The position numbers and the translations under genes are program-made. The notes beneath the pieces were generated by a model that was not told where the DNA came from, made no database searches, and was given only the letters and a program-made list of their open reading frames with translations. This document shows positions 3,602-48,886 of a stretch of DNA of 64,000 nucleotides, piece after piece. Position 1 is the stretch's first letter; the number at the start of each line of letters is the position of its first letter. Source of the stretch: Candidatus Chloroploca sp. Khr17 (GTDB lineage: Bacteria > Chloroflexota > Chloroflexia > Chloroflexales > Chloroflexaceae); the NCBI RefSeq assembly GCF_004138165.1, contig NZ_RYFF01000003.1, forward strand, positions 62,001-126,000. Reading direction: 5' to 3'.

Positions 3602-3656
3602 TGGTTCTTGTGGCGCGAGAAGCCAGCTTTGCTGGCTTCTCGCGCCACAAGAACCA
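3602..3656. repeat. Perfect 26-bp hairpin of the GCCAGC-NNN-GCTGGC family
   Basis: Two perfectly complementary 26-base arms (3602-3627 and 3631-3656) are separated by only TTT. The tip reads GCCAGC-TTT-GCTGGC. Two other hairpins of this design occur at 20891-20935 and 48816-48886 with different outer arms but the same tip. It lies between two tandem + genes, right after the stop of the first, and may end or attenuate transcription. There is no T tract, so the role is inferred. Confidence 0.75.
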
Positions 3657-20890: not shown

Positions 20891-20935
20891 TATGCTTATG
20901 CAGAGGCCAGCAAAGCTGGCCTCTGCATAAGCATA
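20891..20935. repeat. Perfect 21-bp hairpin of the GCCAGC-NNN-GCTGGC family
   Basis: Arms 20891-20911 and 20915-20935 are perfect complements with the loop AAA; the tip is GCCAGC-AAA-GCTGGC. It lies between the stop of arsJ (20947) and the start of scpB (20863), both on the - strand, as expected for a terminator-like divider. Outer arms differ from the other two family members. Confidence 0.75.
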
Positions 20936-30887: not shown

Positions 30888-32015
30888 TTATACTACATTC
30901 TCATCTTGCTCATCGAGACGAATGCGTTCATTGGCCGTCTGGCTTGACTCAACATAACGTCCTGGCATCATCAGACTCGTCCAGCCCCCAGCATCGCGCA
31001 GGGCAAAGGGGTCGCTCTTGCCCCGAGCGGCGCGGGTTGCCCAGGTATGGCGCAAGTCGTGCGGCGCAAGCCCGGTGACGCCAATCCGTTCGCCGAGCAG
31101 GGCAACCCGGTCGCGGATGGCCCTAGTTGACATAAAACCCCAGAGTTCACCATTCTTGCGTGAGCCGCGCAGCAGCGGGCCGGTGGCGAGCGCATCGTTG
31201 GCAAGGTAGGCTTGGGCTGCCGCGAGACTATCAGTTGGCAGGTGGTGCGTCTGGGTTGTATGCACCTTCTCGCGATAGAACGTCAGCGTGCCATCACGGA
31301 GATCAATGCTCGCAACGGTCAGCGCCGCGAGCTCGCCGACGCGCAGGCCAAGATCGAGCAACAGACCGACGAGCAACGCATCGCGGCGGCCCTGGGGCGT
31401 AGCAGGCTGCTCCTTCAAGGCCTGGACCTGGGGCGTCGTCAAGACGATCGCCTGGGCCTTTTTGCTCCCCACCCGAGTTGGCGTAGCAGTGCGCCGTCGC
31501 TGCGTATCCATCGCCCGCGCCTGGCGACCACTATACCCACGCACCGTCCGGATCAGGGCAAGATCATCGGCCGGAATCACGCCAGCCTCATAGGCGAGCA
31601 AGCAATAGCGCCGGACAGTTGCGAGGCGCACATTGATCGACCCGATCGCATAACCCTGTTGCAACTGCCACTGCACAAACCCACTGACGAGGCCGTGGGT
31701 CACATGCTCCCAGGCGTCGGCCTGGGTCGGCAGCCGCGCCCCCAACGCCGCAACCTCAGCCTCAGGGATCGCCTTGATCGACCCAAGGAAAAAGGCAAAA
31801 AGCGCCAGATCCGCTTCCTGGCGGCGCAGCGTATCACCATCAATGCGTCCACGATACTCGGCAAACGTCGTCGCCAGCGCCGCAACATTCGCCGACGCCG
31901 CAACGCTCGGATCAATCCTTGGACGCACGATCCGGCCTGAAGGGGACGATGTTCCGTTTTCTTTACTTATGTCAACCATATGAGGGCTTTTTTCATATAA
32001 CTTCCGATTACCCAT
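30888..32015 (-). CDS. Tyrosine recombinase / phage-type integrase
   Basis: A 375-residue protein with an N-terminal SAM-like core-binding domain (about 45-155) and a catalytic domain with all expected residues: R225 in DLGLRVGELAAL, K250, H319-x-x-R322 in HDLRHTWATRAA, W345 and the nucleophile Y354 in MPGRYVESSQT. The first in-frame ATG (32015) lies in the 7-base spacer of a perfect palindrome (31997-32031). A second ATG at 31979 gives 363 residues; neither has a good ribosome binding site. It is not IntI-like in any motif I recognise. It marks the left end of an accessory island. Confidence 0.88.
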   Translation of the reverse strand: MGNRKLYEKSPHMVDISKENGTSSPSGRIVRPRIDPSVAASANVAALATTFAEYRGRIDGDTLRRQEADLALFAFFLGSIKAIPEAEVAALGARLPTQADAWEHVTHGLVSGFVQWQLQQGYAIGSINVRLATVRRYCLLAYEAGVIPADDLALIRTVRGYSGRQARAMDTQRRRTATPTRVGSKKAQAIVLTTPQVQALKEQPATPQGRRDALLVGLLLDLGLRVGELAALTVASIDLRDGTLTFYREKVHTTQTHHLPTDSLAAAQAYLANDALATGPLLRGSRKNGELWGFMSTRAIRDRVALLGERIGVTGLAPHDLRHTWATRAARGKSDPFALRDAGGWTSLMMPGRYVESSQTANERIRLDEQDENVV

Positions 32016-32031
32016 ACTAATCGGAAGTTAT
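31997..32031. other. Lox/dif-like recombination site candidate: 14-7-14 palindrome at the recombinase gene
   Basis: Left arm ATAACTTCCGATTA (31997-32010), spacer CCCATAC (32011-32017) and right arm (32018-32031) form a perfect 14-base inverted repeat around a 7-base spacer. This is the layout of tyrosine-recombinase core sites. The outer eight bases of each arm (ATAACTTC/GAAGTTAT) equal those of loxP. Its place at the 5' end of a tyrosine recombinase gene makes a site for that enzyme, or its operator, plausible. No second copy was noticed in the window. Confidence 0.55.
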
Positions 32032-32246
32032 TGTAACCCAGGCGGAGGCCCCTGTCAACTGGCGGCAAAAGCATGCTGTTGCACTGTTTGGACAACTGCT
32101 GCGGCAAGTTTGATCGGTGTTGACGCAACGACACAACGGCGCAAAGGTCTGCTCCATCTCCCCACGCAGCAACGTGTTATTGTCAACTTGGTGCAGAGTG
32201 CATGGATAGCGAACCCCAGGGGCTATGCCACAAACGGAGGCAGAGA

Positions 32247-32555: not shown

Positions 32556-32657
32556 CAGATTTAGGTGGCAAACGTGCGGCGTCGCACTATACAGAGCAGA
32601 TTTAGGTGGCAAACGTGCGGCGTCGCACTATACAGAGCAGATTTAGGTGGCATCATC
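32556..32657. repeat. 41-bp tandem repeat, about 2.5 copies
   Basis: Units begin at 32556, 32597 and 32638. The first two are identical over 41 bp and the third is cut after about 15-20 bp. The unit starts CAGATTTAGGTGGC. It lies between two antitoxin genes and has no coding potential. It may be a small minisatellite or a remnant of a mobile element end. Confidence 0.8.
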
Positions 32658-32824: not shown

Positions 32825-33037
32825 ATGACCTTCACGATTGAAACTGAACAAGAAGCAGACATGCGCTGGATTGCGGAAATCATGGAATTAGCAGGTGTGC
32901 TCGCGTATGGGACGACCCGTGATGAAGCAATTGCACGCGCCAAAGCGCTCGCGCTGCGCGTACTTGCAGAGCGGTTAGAGCATGGGGAAGAACCGCTTGC
33001 CTTGGCGACCATTGCCTTTGAAGCGGCCCTCGTATGA
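32825..33037 (+). CDS. hicB: HicB-family antitoxin
   Basis: The 70-residue protein starts at MTFTIETEQE after a GGAGG site. It follows the HicB layout: FTIETEQEADMRWIAEI, a GVLAYGTTRDEAIARAKALALRVL helix, and a short tail. Its stop codon overlaps the start of a HicA-like gene (ATGA), giving an antitoxin-toxin order. HicB binds and neutralises the mRNA-cleaving HicA and often represses the pair. This is the second HicB-like gene within 600 bp. Confidence 0.85.
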   Translation: MTFTIETEQEADMRWIAEIMELAGVLAYGTTRDEAIARAKALALRVLAERLEHGEEPLALATIAFEAALV

Positions 33038-33243
33038 GTACATGGCCCGCAACGAAAGCACGCCGTGTCCTTGCCGCACTCATTCGCATTGGGTGGCAGA
33101 TCAAACGCACGTCTGGCTCCCACCGGACCTTATCACGTCCTGGCTGGCCCGATATGGTTTTTGCCTTTCACGATATAGACGGGACGCAGCCTATTTACAA
33201 GGCAATCGCACCCTGTTTTTACCTCCTTACTATGATAAAATGA
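33034..33243 (+). CDS. hicA: HicA-family mRNA interferase toxin, altered C-terminus
   Basis: The 69-residue product has the double-stranded-RNA-binding-like core of HicA: KARRVLAALIRIGWQIKRTSGSHRTLSRPGW, including the catalytic histidine in GSHRTL. After FAFHD the usual GPRMLARIAKxTGL ending is replaced by unrelated text (IDGTQPIYKAIAPCFYLL), as if by frameshift or end replacement. It overlaps the HicB start-stop by four bases. It may be a weakened toxin. Confidence 0.75.
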   Translation: MSTWPATKARRVLAALIRIGWQIKRTSGSHRTLSRPGWPDMVFAFHDIDGTQPIYKAIAPCFYLLTMIK

Positions 33244-33286
33244 CGTATTATCGCTTTCAAAAAGAGCGAGTACCACGCACGGAGGA

Positions 33287-33526
33287 ATGAATACCATGGA
33301 TATAATGACAACGCAAAGTATATCCGCAGTAAAGTACGAGGCAATCGTACAGGAAGATGGGCATATCGAACTCCAAGTTCCGTTTGCGCCAGGAAGGCGT
33401 GTTGTTGTCTTTGTGCTTCAAGAGCAGGAAGAACCCGATACATTCAGTGATCTTACCCATGCGGCCGCAAGTAGTCTCGCATTTTGGGATCACCCCTTTG
33501 ATGATGAGGATTGGAATAATGATTGA
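33287..33526 (+). CDS. MazE-like antitoxin partner of the adjacent MazF
   Basis: A 79-residue acidic-tailed protein. A second in-frame ATG at 33296 has better spacing to the GGAGG at 33283. Residues 16-46 resemble a short beta DNA-binding module (YEAIVQEDGHIELQVPFAPGRRVVVFVL). The tail SSLAFWDHPFDDEDWNND is the type of flexible acidic end that antitoxins insert into MazF toxins. The toxin gene overlaps its 3' end by eight bases, supporting the pair. Confidence 0.7.
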   Translation: MNTMDIMTTQSISAVKYEAIVQEDGHIELQVPFAPGRRVVVFVLQEQEEPDTFSDLTHAAASSLAFWDHPFDDEDWNND

Positions 33527-33863
33527 CCAAGGTGTAATTGTCCTTATACCGGTGCCCTTTACCGATCTTTCATCAACAAAACGTCGGCCCGTGATTGTTA
33601 TTTCAAGTGCGACGTATAATCGGACGACATCCGACATGATTGTGGTGGCGATGACCTCAAATCCAGCCCAAACACGGTATAGCTTTACGATTACCAACCA
33701 GGATCTTGTGGAAGGATCACTGAATCGGCCAGGACAAGTACGGACAGATAAGATCTATACGCTTTCACAAAGTATCGCTGTTCGTGTTTTTGGCAAAGTG
33801 AAAACAGAAATAATAGAGAAAATAAAAGTACTCTTGAATAAAGCGACAAATATAGAGCAATAA
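33519..33863 (+). CDS. mazF: MazF/PemK-family endoribonuclease toxin
   Basis: The start at 33519 (MIDQGVIVLIPVPFTD) overlaps the antitoxin gene. The 114-residue protein carries the family landmarks GVIVLIPVPFTDLSSTKRRPVIVIS, DMIVVAMTSNP and LNRPGQVRTDKIYTLSQS. These enzymes cut mRNA at short motifs when freed from the antitoxin. Base composition is more AT-rich than the surrounding core genes. Only 16 bases after the stop an integron attC-type site begins, so the pair may itself be a captured cassette. Confidence 0.88.
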   Translation: MIDQGVIVLIPVPFTDLSSTKRRPVIVISSATYNRTTSDMIVVAMTSNPAQTRYSFTITNQDLVEGSLNRPGQVRTDKIYTLSQSIAVRVFGKVKTEIIEKIKVLLNKATNIEQ

Positions 33864-33878
33864 AAGCACTGCCCGCCC

Positions 33879-34008
33879 GCCCAACATTCGCCGTAGCCGA
33901 CGCCGCTGCGCGGCCCCAAACGAGGGTGAGTCTGTCAGTCTGATCGCGTGCCGACTGTGGTTGCCATCCCGACCGTCGCAGCGGCGCGGCTAGGCTCTGG
34001 CGTTAGGT
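33879..34008 (+). other. Integron attC-type recombination site
   Basis: The interval starts with GCCCAAC (RYYYAAC consensus, 33879-33885) and ends with GTTAGGT (GTTRRRY consensus, 34002-34008), 130 bp apart. The inner parts AGCCGACGCCGCTGCG and CAGCGGCGCGGCT pair as inverted repeats with one extra base on one strand, as in attC folded structures. The following gene starts eight bases after the site, which is normal for cassette genes. No intI gene is in this window. Confidence 0.75.
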
Positions 34009-34015
34009 CTCGCAA

Positions 34016-34498
34016 ATGAACACCTTGCCCTCCATCGACGAAGTAATCGCGCAGCTCGCCGTGCATGGAATCGCGCTCCCGCAAGGTACTGTTCGCGTTG
34101 ACGGATACGGAGATTCAGCCGAGCTGTCCACAGAGCTACTCGACCTCATCAAGTCAGGGCGCAAGCGAGCAGGGACTGGACTGCTATGGGCTTACGAACA
34201 CGATGGTGAACCCATCGCACAGACAGGAGACATCGAGATCGTCGTTGACCATCGAAACCAACCTGCACTGATCACAAGAATCGTGAGGTCTGAGGTCGTC
34301 GCTTTCATTGAAGTCAGCGCGGAGTACGCAGCAATCGAGGGAGAAGGCGATGGTTCATTGGAATACTGGCGCAAGGGGCACTGGAACTTCTTCTCCCGTG
34401 AGTGCAGACGCATCGGAAGGGAGCCAACGGAAACCATGCCAGTCATCTGCAACGTCTTTGAAGTACTGCATGTTCTACCTGCGCCGAGCGACGCCTAA
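34016..34498 (+). CDS. ASCH-domain protein, integron-cassette gene
   Basis: The 160-residue protein has the ASCH fold signatures LLDLIKSGRKRAGTGLLWAYEHDGEP, IEIVVDHRNQPALITRIVRSEVVAF and EGDGSLEYWRKGHWNFF. ASCH domains relate to PUA-like RNA-binding folds; some members act on modified nucleosides. The gene begins just after an attC site and its stop TAA lies inside GCCTAAC of a second attC-like end, so it fits a single gene cassette. Its codon use differs from nearby chromosomal genes. Function is not assigned beyond the fold. Confidence 0.82.
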   Translation: MNTLPSIDEVIAQLAVHGIALPQGTVRVDGYGDSAELSTELLDLIKSGRKRAGTGLLWAYEHDGEPIAQTGDIEIVVDHRNQPALITRIVRSEVVAFIEVSAEYAAIEGEGDGSLEYWRKGHWNFFSRECRRIGREPTETMPVICNVFEVLHVLPAPSDA

Positions 34499-34530
34499 CC
34501 ACTCGCTCAAGTGGAGCGCCCCCAACCCGT
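34493..34530 (+). other. Left half of a second attC site, right half missing
   Basis: GCCTAAC (34493-34499) followed by CACTCGCTCAAG and a GGAGCG run matches the first half of gamma-proteobacterial-type attC sites. A GTTRRRY right end was not found in the following 280 bp. The site appears to have been cut by a later deletion or insertion, near the IS3 fragment at 34655. Confidence 0.55.
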
Positions 34531-34654
34531 ACACACCCAGGCCGAATCGCGAGTCAAAAAGACATACAACATGGCTCTGCGTGTATCGTGGCTTGACGGC
34601 TTCTTGCTTCCCTTGTAAGGTCGAACACCTGCTGAGCGGAAAAGCGTCCAATGA

Positions 34655-34792
34655 GAGCCAGCCATCCCTGCAGCGCTGAACGAGAAGCGCACGCTCCTCG
34701 AACCCGATCATCCTGACCTGAGTATTCGGCGTCAGTGTGCGCTCCTCGGCCTCAACCGCGCATCATATTACTACAGTGCACAAACACCCTAG
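34655..34792 (+). pseudogene. IS3-family transposase OrfB remnant
   Basis: A 46-codon open stretch includes NEKRTLLEPDHPDLSIRRQ followed by CALLGLNRASYYYSAQTP. This is the start of the OrfB region of IS3-type elements (HPxLSIRRQCxLLGLxRxSYYY). It ends at TAG with no DDE catalytic domain and no terminal repeats found, so it is a relic. It abuts the stop of the Uma2 gene on the other strand. Confidence 0.75.
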
Positions 34793-35346
34793 AAGAGATC
34801 GTGCGTATGTAGCTGTACTTCTGGAAGCATCGTTGCCGTAATCATATTGCCGCGTAATACTTTGTGGAGTTGCGTATATTCATTTTGCACGGGTTGGGTA
34901 TACTGCTCAATTACGAGCTTATGTACGTCAATAATCCATACTTCACTAATCCCGGAACGTGCGTACCGCGGCAATTTTTCGTCGCGATCATACTCGATTG
35001 AACTATCGGCAATCTCAATAACGAGCAATACATCATCTGGGGTTGCGAGGGCGCGCGTATAAAAATCATCACGGGGACTCAAGATCGCAATATCAGGTTG
35101 TGGCTCGCTATAGTCGCTTAAGCGGATGGGGTTTTGAATACTTACAATGCCTGCCGTTCCCACAAGGAGGCTTAAGAGCCGATTTAACTTATTGACGATC
35201 CCCACATGCAGCGGGCCAATTGGGCTCATAACGTAGATCTCTCCATCCAGCAGTTCAACCCGATCATCTTCGGTAAGAATACCCGCCTGACGCATCAGGG
35301 TATAATCGTGAACCGTAAATTGGTGCCGTGTGCGCGTGATCGTCAT
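34789..35346 (-). CDS. Uma2-family putative endonuclease (DUF820)
   Basis: The start MTITRTRHQFTV has a GGAG site eight bases upstream. At 185 residues it is full length for the family. It shows TVHDYTLMRQAGILTEDDRVELLDGEIYVMSPIGPLH, EPQPDIAILSPRDDFY, VLLVIEIADSSIEYDRDEKLPRYARSGISEVWIIDV and a family-type end. The D-(E/D)-x-D pattern and VIEIADSS match the PD-(D/E)XK-like nuclease core. These proteins are very numerous in Cyanobacteria and Chloroflexota and their role is unknown; a link to mobile elements is suspected. Confidence 0.85.
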   Translation of the reverse strand: MTITRTRHQFTVHDYTLMRQAGILTEDDRVELLDGEIYVMSPIGPLHVGIVNKLNRLLSLLVGTAGIVSIQNPIRLSDYSEPQPDIAILSPRDDFYTRALATPDDVLLVIEIADSSIEYDRDEKLPRYARSGISEVWIIDVHKLVIEQYTQPVQNEYTQLHKVLRGNMITATMLPEVQLHTHDLF

Positions 35347-35545
35347 CTGTAGTGCTCCTCGTTCCCGCCCGCTATCTCTGTGCCGATGTTGGCATATCAT
35401 ACCATCCGGTCTTCTTTGCAAAGGATTGGGGCAAGCGGGCCAGTACAGGCAGTTACCCAGAAGCGCATCTACCCCTCCGTCGTTGCCAAGGGCATGCAGT
35501 TGGTCAGGTAATCGCGTGGCACATTGGCCCCTTTGGTGCCGACTA

Positions 35546-48815: not shown

Positions 48816-48886
48816 GCCAATGGTGGCGCACAGCAAAAAACAAGCCAGCATTGCTGGCTTGTTTTTTGCTGTGCGCCACCATTGGC
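48816..48886. repeat. Perfect 34-bp hairpin of the GCCAGC-NNN-GCTGGC family
   Basis: Arms of 34 bases (48816-48849 and 48853-48886) are perfectly complementary around the loop ATT. The stem is the longest in this window and contains runs AAAAAA and TTTTTT that would give a terminator-like U tract in the - strand transcript. It starts two bases after the adenosine deaminase stop, so it likely ends that gene. The tip matches the hairpins at 3602 and 20891. Confidence 0.8.

Follow-up and report, generated by a model that had tools for sequence, protein, structure and literature searches.

A conserved palindrome beside a tyrosine recombinase gene of Chloroploca: a candidate Xer/dif-like resolution module of Chloroflexota

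Results

The recombinase gene and the adjoining palindrome

The window (the whole 64,000-nucleotide stretch analysed, from Candidatus Chloroploca sp. Khr17) is part of contig C92 of a 6.38-Mb draft genome in 171 contigs (G000). It contains a minus-strand open reading frame that matches PF00589 (E 5e-19) and, upstream of it, a perfect inverted repeat that a sequence-only reading had taken for the crossover site of the encoded enzyme; direct reading of the window confirmed two 14-base arms around a 7-nt centre (Table 1). Residues R213, K238, H307, R310, W333 and Y342, which we take to be the full catalytic set of a tyrosine recombinase, are invariant in 34 of 34 aligned sequences (the recombinase and 33 homologues). 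Against the NCBIfam equivalogs XerS, XerC and XerD the protein scores 38-51 bits, far under the curated cut-offs of 267-335, and identity with any of the three was rejected. The structure model (mean pLDDT 79.9, pTM 0.52) resembles two known recombinases: over 236 residues it fits XerA with Z 18.2 and rmsd 15.5, and over 264 residues Cre with Z 17.3 and rmsd 14.9. A different hinge between the two domains is the probable cause of these high rmsd values. No XerL-type entries were among the structural matches listed. A XerD-like protein, separate from the recombinase, occurs in 40 of 41 family genomes, this one included (312 bits, below the curated cut-off), and the recombinase is therefore not the sole candidate chromosome resolvase.

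Table 1. Positions of the recombinase gene, the palindrome and associated elements in the window
Feature	Position	Strand	Basis or remark
Tyrosine recombinase, 363 aa	30888..31979	-	PF00589; six catalytic-type residues invariant in homologues
TTGACATAA element	31967..31975	-	8-21 nt downstream of site in eight of nine gene-abutting close relatives
Perfect inverted repeat, 14-7-14	31997..32031		direct reading of the window
Arm 1 of core site, ATAACTTCCGATTA	31997..32010	+	sequence; kept in relatives
Core-site centre, 7 nt, CCCATAC on + / GTATGGG on -	32011..32017	.	length conserved, sequence variable
Arm 2 of core site, TAATCGGAAGTTAT on +, ATAACTTCCGATTA on -	32018..32031	-	sequence
Putative -10 box, TACAAT	32030..32035	-	overlaps outer two bases of arm 2
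Putative -35 box of recombinase promoter, TTGACA	32053..32058	-	consensus match

The suggestion that the recombinase ATG can lie in the spacer holds insofar as an ATG is present there on the recombinase strand, where it opens a longer frame (30888-32015, minus strand). The start is probably the in-frame ATG at 31979 instead: in one relative (G001) the conserved Met-(Val/Ile)-Asp-Ile start is separated from the palindrome by two stop codons, and in two others (G002 and G031) the first Met also lies downstream of the palindrome, which makes the spacer ATG the less likely choice.

In 20 simulated windows drawn from a first-order Markov model of the real one, the mean number of perfect repeats with at least 12 bases per arm and a spacer of at most 20 was 0.05, and none had arms of at least 14. 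The window itself holds six such repeats with arms of at least 12, the core palindrome included; because five further ones are present, palindromicity is not special there, and our argument rests on conservation. Long perfect hairpins are 35-1-35 at 48816-48886, 26-3-26 at 3602, 21-3-21 at 20891 and 18-9-18 at 1278, and the stems of several of these contain GCCAGC/GCTGGC or CCAGC; tandem copies of a ~41-bp unit, acagagcagatttaggtggcaaacgtgcggcgtcgcactat, were seen by eye at about 32562-32645. For the core palindrome, a plain terminator hairpin was rejected on account of its 7-nt centre, its link to one gene family and its position at the -10 box. The outer eight bases of each arm, ATAACTTC, are presumably identical to those of loxP. 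Unlike the inner arm CCGATTA, which is conserved, these outer bases differ among relatives (ATAAGTAC, ATAACTAC, ATAAATAC, ATACGTTC and ATAAGTTC), so homology to loxP was rejected and the likeness is, as had been suspected, one of convergence.

Site conservation among close relatives

Among 158 genomes of the class, the recombinase was present in 25 at E 1e-40 or better. Twelve genomes, the Khr17 genome included, carry a close recombinase (about 70% identity or more), and a thirteenth, G003, has a fragment at a contig edge. The pattern TWCCGATTA-N7-TAATCGGWA with at most one mismatch was found in all 13 of these close-clade genomes and in G086, with three sites in the reversed control. When no mismatch and centres of 6-9 nt were allowed, 12 of the 158 genomes matched, namely 11 close relatives and G138, and the reversed control gave none. 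The exact inner core with a 7-nt centre occurs in 11 of 158 genomes, once in each and always with a close recombinase, and two of these 11 carry an additional site with an 8-nt centre on a plasmid contig. The 6-nt-centre site of G138 and the one-mismatch sites in G003, G039:C353, G086, G180 and G318 were treated as probable chance matches.

In 11 of the 13 close-clade genomes the site lies beside the recombinase gene. Nine of these linked sites abut the gene or overlap its leader, and those of G024 and G027 are a few hundred bases upstream. The exceptions are G003 and G026; in the latter the site is on a contig other than that of the recombinase gene, where the 19 kb read contained no match to the recombinase, and adjoins the same upstream gene family as in its sister genomes. 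Centre sequences vary (CCCATAC, ATCATAC, TTCATAC, TCCATAC, CTCTTAC, CCCTTTC and others). The three Chloroploca genomes share an identical site and centre in the same orientation, and on the gene side they also keep the adjacent dehydrogenase and TPR genes. Their promoter-side flanks differ; in the window this side holds a cluster of HicA toxin, PemK/MazF-like toxin and Uma2 nuclease genes (33034-35421). Relative to the gene, the centre is oriented one way in G001, G031, G024, G027 and Anaerolineae and the opposite way in Chloroploca, G002 and G023, and so differs even within one genus (G001 and G002).

A putative promoter accompanies the gene-abutting sites. In all nine close relatives with such a site the -35 box (TTGACA; TTGACG in G002) begins exactly 27 nt before the arm; after 17 nt comes a -10 box (TANNAT in eight, GATAAT in G023) that shares its final two bases with the start of the arm. 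The boxes are absent from G024, G026 and G027, where the site is away from the gene. Bound recombinase would thus cover the -10 box and the start site; this fixed geometry makes autoregulation of the recombinase gene likely, and control of the gene by bound recombinase, without any rearrangement, is plausible.

Searches of the draft Khr17 genome (171 contigs; degenerate copies would escape) gave no further site whose centre is 7 nt long, and contig C92 yielded no additional copy, inverted or otherwise. The only other clear site has an 8-nt centre and was found on C33, a contig apart from C92 that is probably a circular plasmid. Single-arm matches with at most two mismatches numbered six beyond the site, the same as in the reversed control, and only the C33 pair among them is meaningful; single arms with three mismatches in the window are at chance level. 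With up to two mismatches per arm, the draft genome gave no second att-like copy apart from the plasmid site.

Paralogues, distant homologues and the phylum

Paralogues of about 50% identity have another site, GACTCGCATAA-N7-TTATGCGAGTC, whose centre is also 7 nt long. With at most three mismatches it was found at nine places in eight of the 158 genomes (two in the reversed control): five adjoin an intact paralogue, three a broken or truncated copy, and one, G039:C196, has no copy in 1.5 kb. Arm sequence follows the enzyme clade, and the centre is constant in length (7) and variable in sequence. Recombinase copies beside sites are often broken with the site still recognisable (L220 on pHAU01, L204, L205 and L207); the copy on pHAU01 is split by about 2 kb, and those in G015:C69, G000:C24 and G037:C686 are truncated. 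The sites L269 (pHAU01, 256,178) and L278 (G045:C38), with three mismatches each, have two arms that resemble those of two different recombinase clades (CTGATTT type and AAGTTGGCCCT type), which would suit the involvement of two enzymes or of half-sites joined by recombination.

For more distant homologues we used a profile trained on eight close-clade sites, allowing centres of 3-12 nt within at most 450 bp upstream, and 3,800 shuffles, which replaced an earlier random-window control. The 38 loci were hand-chosen at less than 55% identity, with most same-species duplicates and short-upstream loci left out. Thirteen of the 38 exceeded the 99th percentile of the shuffles, all with a 7-nt centre; when L225 and L226, originally found by the pattern itself, were dropped, 11 of 36 did so, again all with a spacer of 7, and seven of the 36 scored above every shuffle. 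Records of Anaerolineae, Caldilineaceae and Ardenticatenaceae are among the positive loci, as is a Leptolinea plasmid of 212 kb. The remaining 25 of 38 had no site over the 99% shuffle level in the stretch scanned, and in a profile-free search many distant homologues had no repeat or had another spacer. Other arms were found at L011 and L053 (7 nt) and at L038 (8 nt); other distant homologues may lack a site.

In a sample of 400 genomes of the phylum, the pattern CYGATTWNYNATACWAATCRG with at most one mismatch was found in 17 genomes (three in the reversed control) and the recombinase in 32. All 11 genomes with an exact match, six of which are the close relatives that supplied the pattern, are among the 32 recombinase carriers (0.9 expected). 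One-mismatch matches came from four genomes with the recombinase (G044, G045, G183 and G450) and two without it (G180 and G318), so that 15 of the 32 recombinase-bearing genomes match the pattern and 17 do not. Searched for beside homologous recombinases, the palindrome was thus found conserved across genera and, more weakly, across classes; together with the clade-specific arms and the constant centre length, this is how the core crossover site of the adjoining enzyme would behave, and that part of the sequence-only reading was upheld. The outcome named beforehand as counting against it, absence of a second site from every genome together with lack of conservation beside homologous recombinases, did not occur.

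Sites on plasmids and phages

The plasmid contig C33 of the Khr17 genome (18,363 bp) and contig C3 of G014 (17,193 bp) are related and, as their ends repeat 77 bases, are probably circular plasmids. Each has one site with the same inner arms as the chromosomal one and an 8-nt centre, which leaves use of the host enzyme by these Chloroploca plasmids uncertain. C3 also encodes its own 308-aa integrase-family gene, and the corresponding stretch of C33 is without about 0.4 kb of it. Two Herpetosiphon contigs are circular as well and have a single 7-nt site apiece: G043:C8, whose ends overlap by 8,381 bases, and G045:C52, with an overlap of 127 bases. The 212-kb Leptolinea plasmid mentioned above (AP024711.1) carries both the recombinase gene and the site.

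Sites with a 7-nt centre were also present on the viral contigs L215, L216 and L217, whose whole records, which may be fragments, gave no PF00589 match; L216 carries portal and terminase genes. Read on the opposite strand, the centre of L216 and L217 is TTTATAC, as it is in the Chloroflexota chromosomal loci L133, L136 and L128, and a shared centre is what integration by a host enzyme would require. Two other viral matches, L214 (within a coding frame) and L218, were treated as probable chance. Homologues of the recombinase itself occur on two viral contigs.

Position relative to the replication terminus in Herpetosiphon

Herpetosiphon genomes have one to six matches each at up to three mismatches (the six of G043 include one counted twice; the reversed control gave one each in G045 and G047), and the site is mostly away from the recombinase gene. 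In H. aurantiacus only the plasmid pHAU01 matches at this level; its chromosome (G042:C1) has the recombinase and no site match at up to three mismatches.

GC skew was followed around the three sites on non-plasmid contigs known to exceed 140 kb (the lengths of G043:C18 and C24 were unavailable). In 20 samples of 20 kb from the 1.16-Mb contig of G047, skew stays positive as far as 320 kb, is close to zero between 335 and 397 kb and negative over 400-960 kb, with weakly positive values (0.037 and 0.006) after that; the site, at 365.6 kb, is inside the 335-400 kb zone of the turn from positive to negative. The cumulative-skew maximum of G046:C123 is at 48.4 kb and its site at 21.9 kb (26 kb apart), and that of G043:C6 is at 117.9 kb and its site at 142.3 kb (24 kb apart), with just 30 kb of weakly negative skew beyond. 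These may represent one inherited location rather than three independent cases. The distance from dif to the skew switch has a median of 7.3 kb and a third quartile of 21 kb in Proteobacteria (PMC2731167) and is 35-43 kb in L. pneumophila (PMC9765430). On the shorter contigs G043:C17 and G044:C28 no positive-to-negative switch was seen at the site: the ends of the former are positive throughout, and in the latter skew is negative at the left end and close to zero about the site. For Chloroploca (G000:C92, G015:C72 and G014:C45) the skew was too noisy, with no clear terminus seen at the site, and the gene-strand bias on G015:C72 runs in the wrong direction for a terminus.

Discussion

Interpretation and alternatives

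The palindrome is well supported, on comparative sequence grounds, as the recognition site and recombination core of the adjoining tyrosine recombinase. Taken as a whole, the locus would be a single-recombinase, Xer/dif-like resolution module of Chloroflexota that is also used by plasmids and phages, a reading to which we assign a probability of about 0.62. A recombinase dimer would occupy the pair of arms; on a dimeric or multimeric circle, two such sites would meet in a tetramer, and strand exchange inside the 7-bp centre would convert the circle dimer to monomers, as in single-recombinase Xer/dif systems. With the arms overlapping the -10 box, bound recombinase would probably repress its own gene, and plasmids and phages with similar arms could rely on the host enzyme to resolve or integrate themselves. 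Dimer or multimer resolution fits best as the use, given the one 7-nt site per genome in the clade of the window, the circular plasmids and the closeness to the terminus in Herpetosiphon. What we propose is a likeness to the single-recombinase Xer/dif modules; membership is not claimed, since a XerD-like protein is also in the cell and the activity of the recombinase is a prediction from sequence. The wide occurrence of that XerD-like protein in the family further argues against a housekeeping role in Chloroploca.

Integrase genes usually have an attachment site beside them, and the layout seen here would also suit the integrase of an integrated mobile element with the palindrome as its attachment core (attL or attP-like). 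The gene is accessory, being present in 25 of 158 genomes, has paralogues and homologues on two viral contigs, and its neighbourhoods differ between genera, all of which would suit such an element. We nevertheless regard this as improbable: the draft genome, searched at up to two mismatches per arm, yielded no second att-like copy besides the plasmid site, single-arm matches equal the reversed control in number, the gene-side dehydrogenase and TPR neighbours are constant in three Chloroploca genomes, and full sites occur without an adjoining gene in G026, on some Herpetosiphon contigs and in phages. The same unlinked sites bear on the possibility that the palindrome is an operator only, at which the recombinase or another regulator represses the promoter while recombination takes place elsewhere. 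Promoter boxes at constant distance, with the -10 box overlapping the arm in nine of nine gene-abutting relatives, would be expected of an operator, and recombinase-fold proteins that act as prophage regulators exist, MrpR/YopR being among the structural matches (PMC10516654). G024, G026 and G027 keep the site without the promoter, however, sites on plasmids, on phages and for the most part in Herpetosiphon are not next to the gene, and the six catalytic-type residues are retained, so we hold an operator-only function to be unlikely; the constant length and free sequence of the 7-nt centre also suit strand exchange, although an operator could show likewise. In G026 and Herpetosiphon the site evidently persists apart from the gene.

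Of all the readings considered, the self-switching system first proposed for this locus fared worst. The site does lie between promoter and start codon, so that inversion or excision there would alter expression, and the centre points in opposite directions with respect to the gene in different species. Against this, searches of the draft genome gave no partner on C92, nor one elsewhere that shares the centre, three-mismatch matches to one arm are no commoner in the window than expected by chance, and site, centre and orientation are identical in three Chloroploca genomes; switching is thus very improbable.

Beyond the preferred reading of a resolution module, we tentatively suggest, in a picture that is somewhat less probable than its converse, that Chloroflexota may harbour independent, autoregulated Cre-like resolution modules. 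Several paralogues per cell, each with an orthogonal 7-nt-centre site at its own promoter, would then serve the chromosome and plasmids, plasmids would be set apart from the chromosome by a centre one base different in length, and phages would borrow the site for integration.

Relation to known systems

Cre/loxP shares with the present module a tyrosine recombinase of similar fold (structural match given above) and symmetric arms, and the Trp at the second histidine position is, we take it, likewise found in Cre. The arms of loxP are 13 bases long and its centre 8, compared to 14-bp arms and a 7-nt centre here, and the sequence similarity to Cre is weak (29 bits).

By architecture the nearest system is XerL/dif of the Legionellales (PMC9765430). 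Common to both are a single recombinase, perfectly palindromic arms, a plasmid on which the site adjoins the recombinase gene (in Coxiella there) and a mobile element that carries the site, an integrating one there. In both, too, chromosomal sites are close to the GC-skew switch, here on three Herpetosiphon contigs. The Legionella arms, by the same account, are 10 bp long, reportedly without homology to known ones, and were shown experimentally; the module described here differs in its 14-bp arms, 7-nt centre, promoter overlap, more than one recombinase-site pair in one genome and second, XerD-like protein. Next nearest are XerS/difSL and XerH/difH, which share a single recombinase linked to its site as one module and inverted-repeat arms (PMC2731167, PMC5357621), with a centre of 11 bp in difSL and of 6-10 bp in difH (PMC5357621), compared to 7 nt here. 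As for the traits typical of Xer/dif, a short palindromic site of ~30 bp with a centre of 6-8 (up to 11) bp is matched by the 14-7-14 repeat. Site and gene are linked in most of the close clade and mostly unlinked in Herpetosiphon. One 7-nt site was found in each of 11 draft close-clade genomes with no mismatch allowed. Herpetosiphon genomes gave one to six matches at up to three mismatches, where two of the carriers are circular plasmids and the H. aurantiacus chromosome has none. The recombinase is not the only Xer recombinase of the cell, given the XerD-like protein. Xer/dif systems resolve dimers, usually together with FtsK, and for the present module such resolution is a prediction. XerCD (PMC2731167, PMC5357621) employs two recombinases on asymmetric arms, in contrast to the symmetric arms and apparently single recombinase here; there too the plasmid centre is the longer one, 6 bp in dif and 8 bp in ColE1 cer, compared to 7 and 8 here.

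The best literature matches among open-licence papers contained no earlier description of such a module in Chloroflexota. One survey (PMC3025954) predicted dif in three Chloroflexi, all Dehalococcoides, and the module, if the proposed reading is true, would add a resolution system to a phylum in which surveyed dif was limited to these three. Alongside dif and cer, it would also be a further natural example in which the chromosome and plasmid sites have the same arms and centres of different length, and it would provide natural recombinase-site pairs with different arms inside one genome, useful for specificity studies and as genome tools. A minor feature of the locus touches on dif itself: the TTGACATAA element, found 21 nt downstream of the site in six genomes, 13 nt in G031, where it is placed upstream of the likely start, and 8 nt in G002, is the reverse complement of TTATGTCAA, a stretch within the XerD half of the F. 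alni dif given in PMC3025954.
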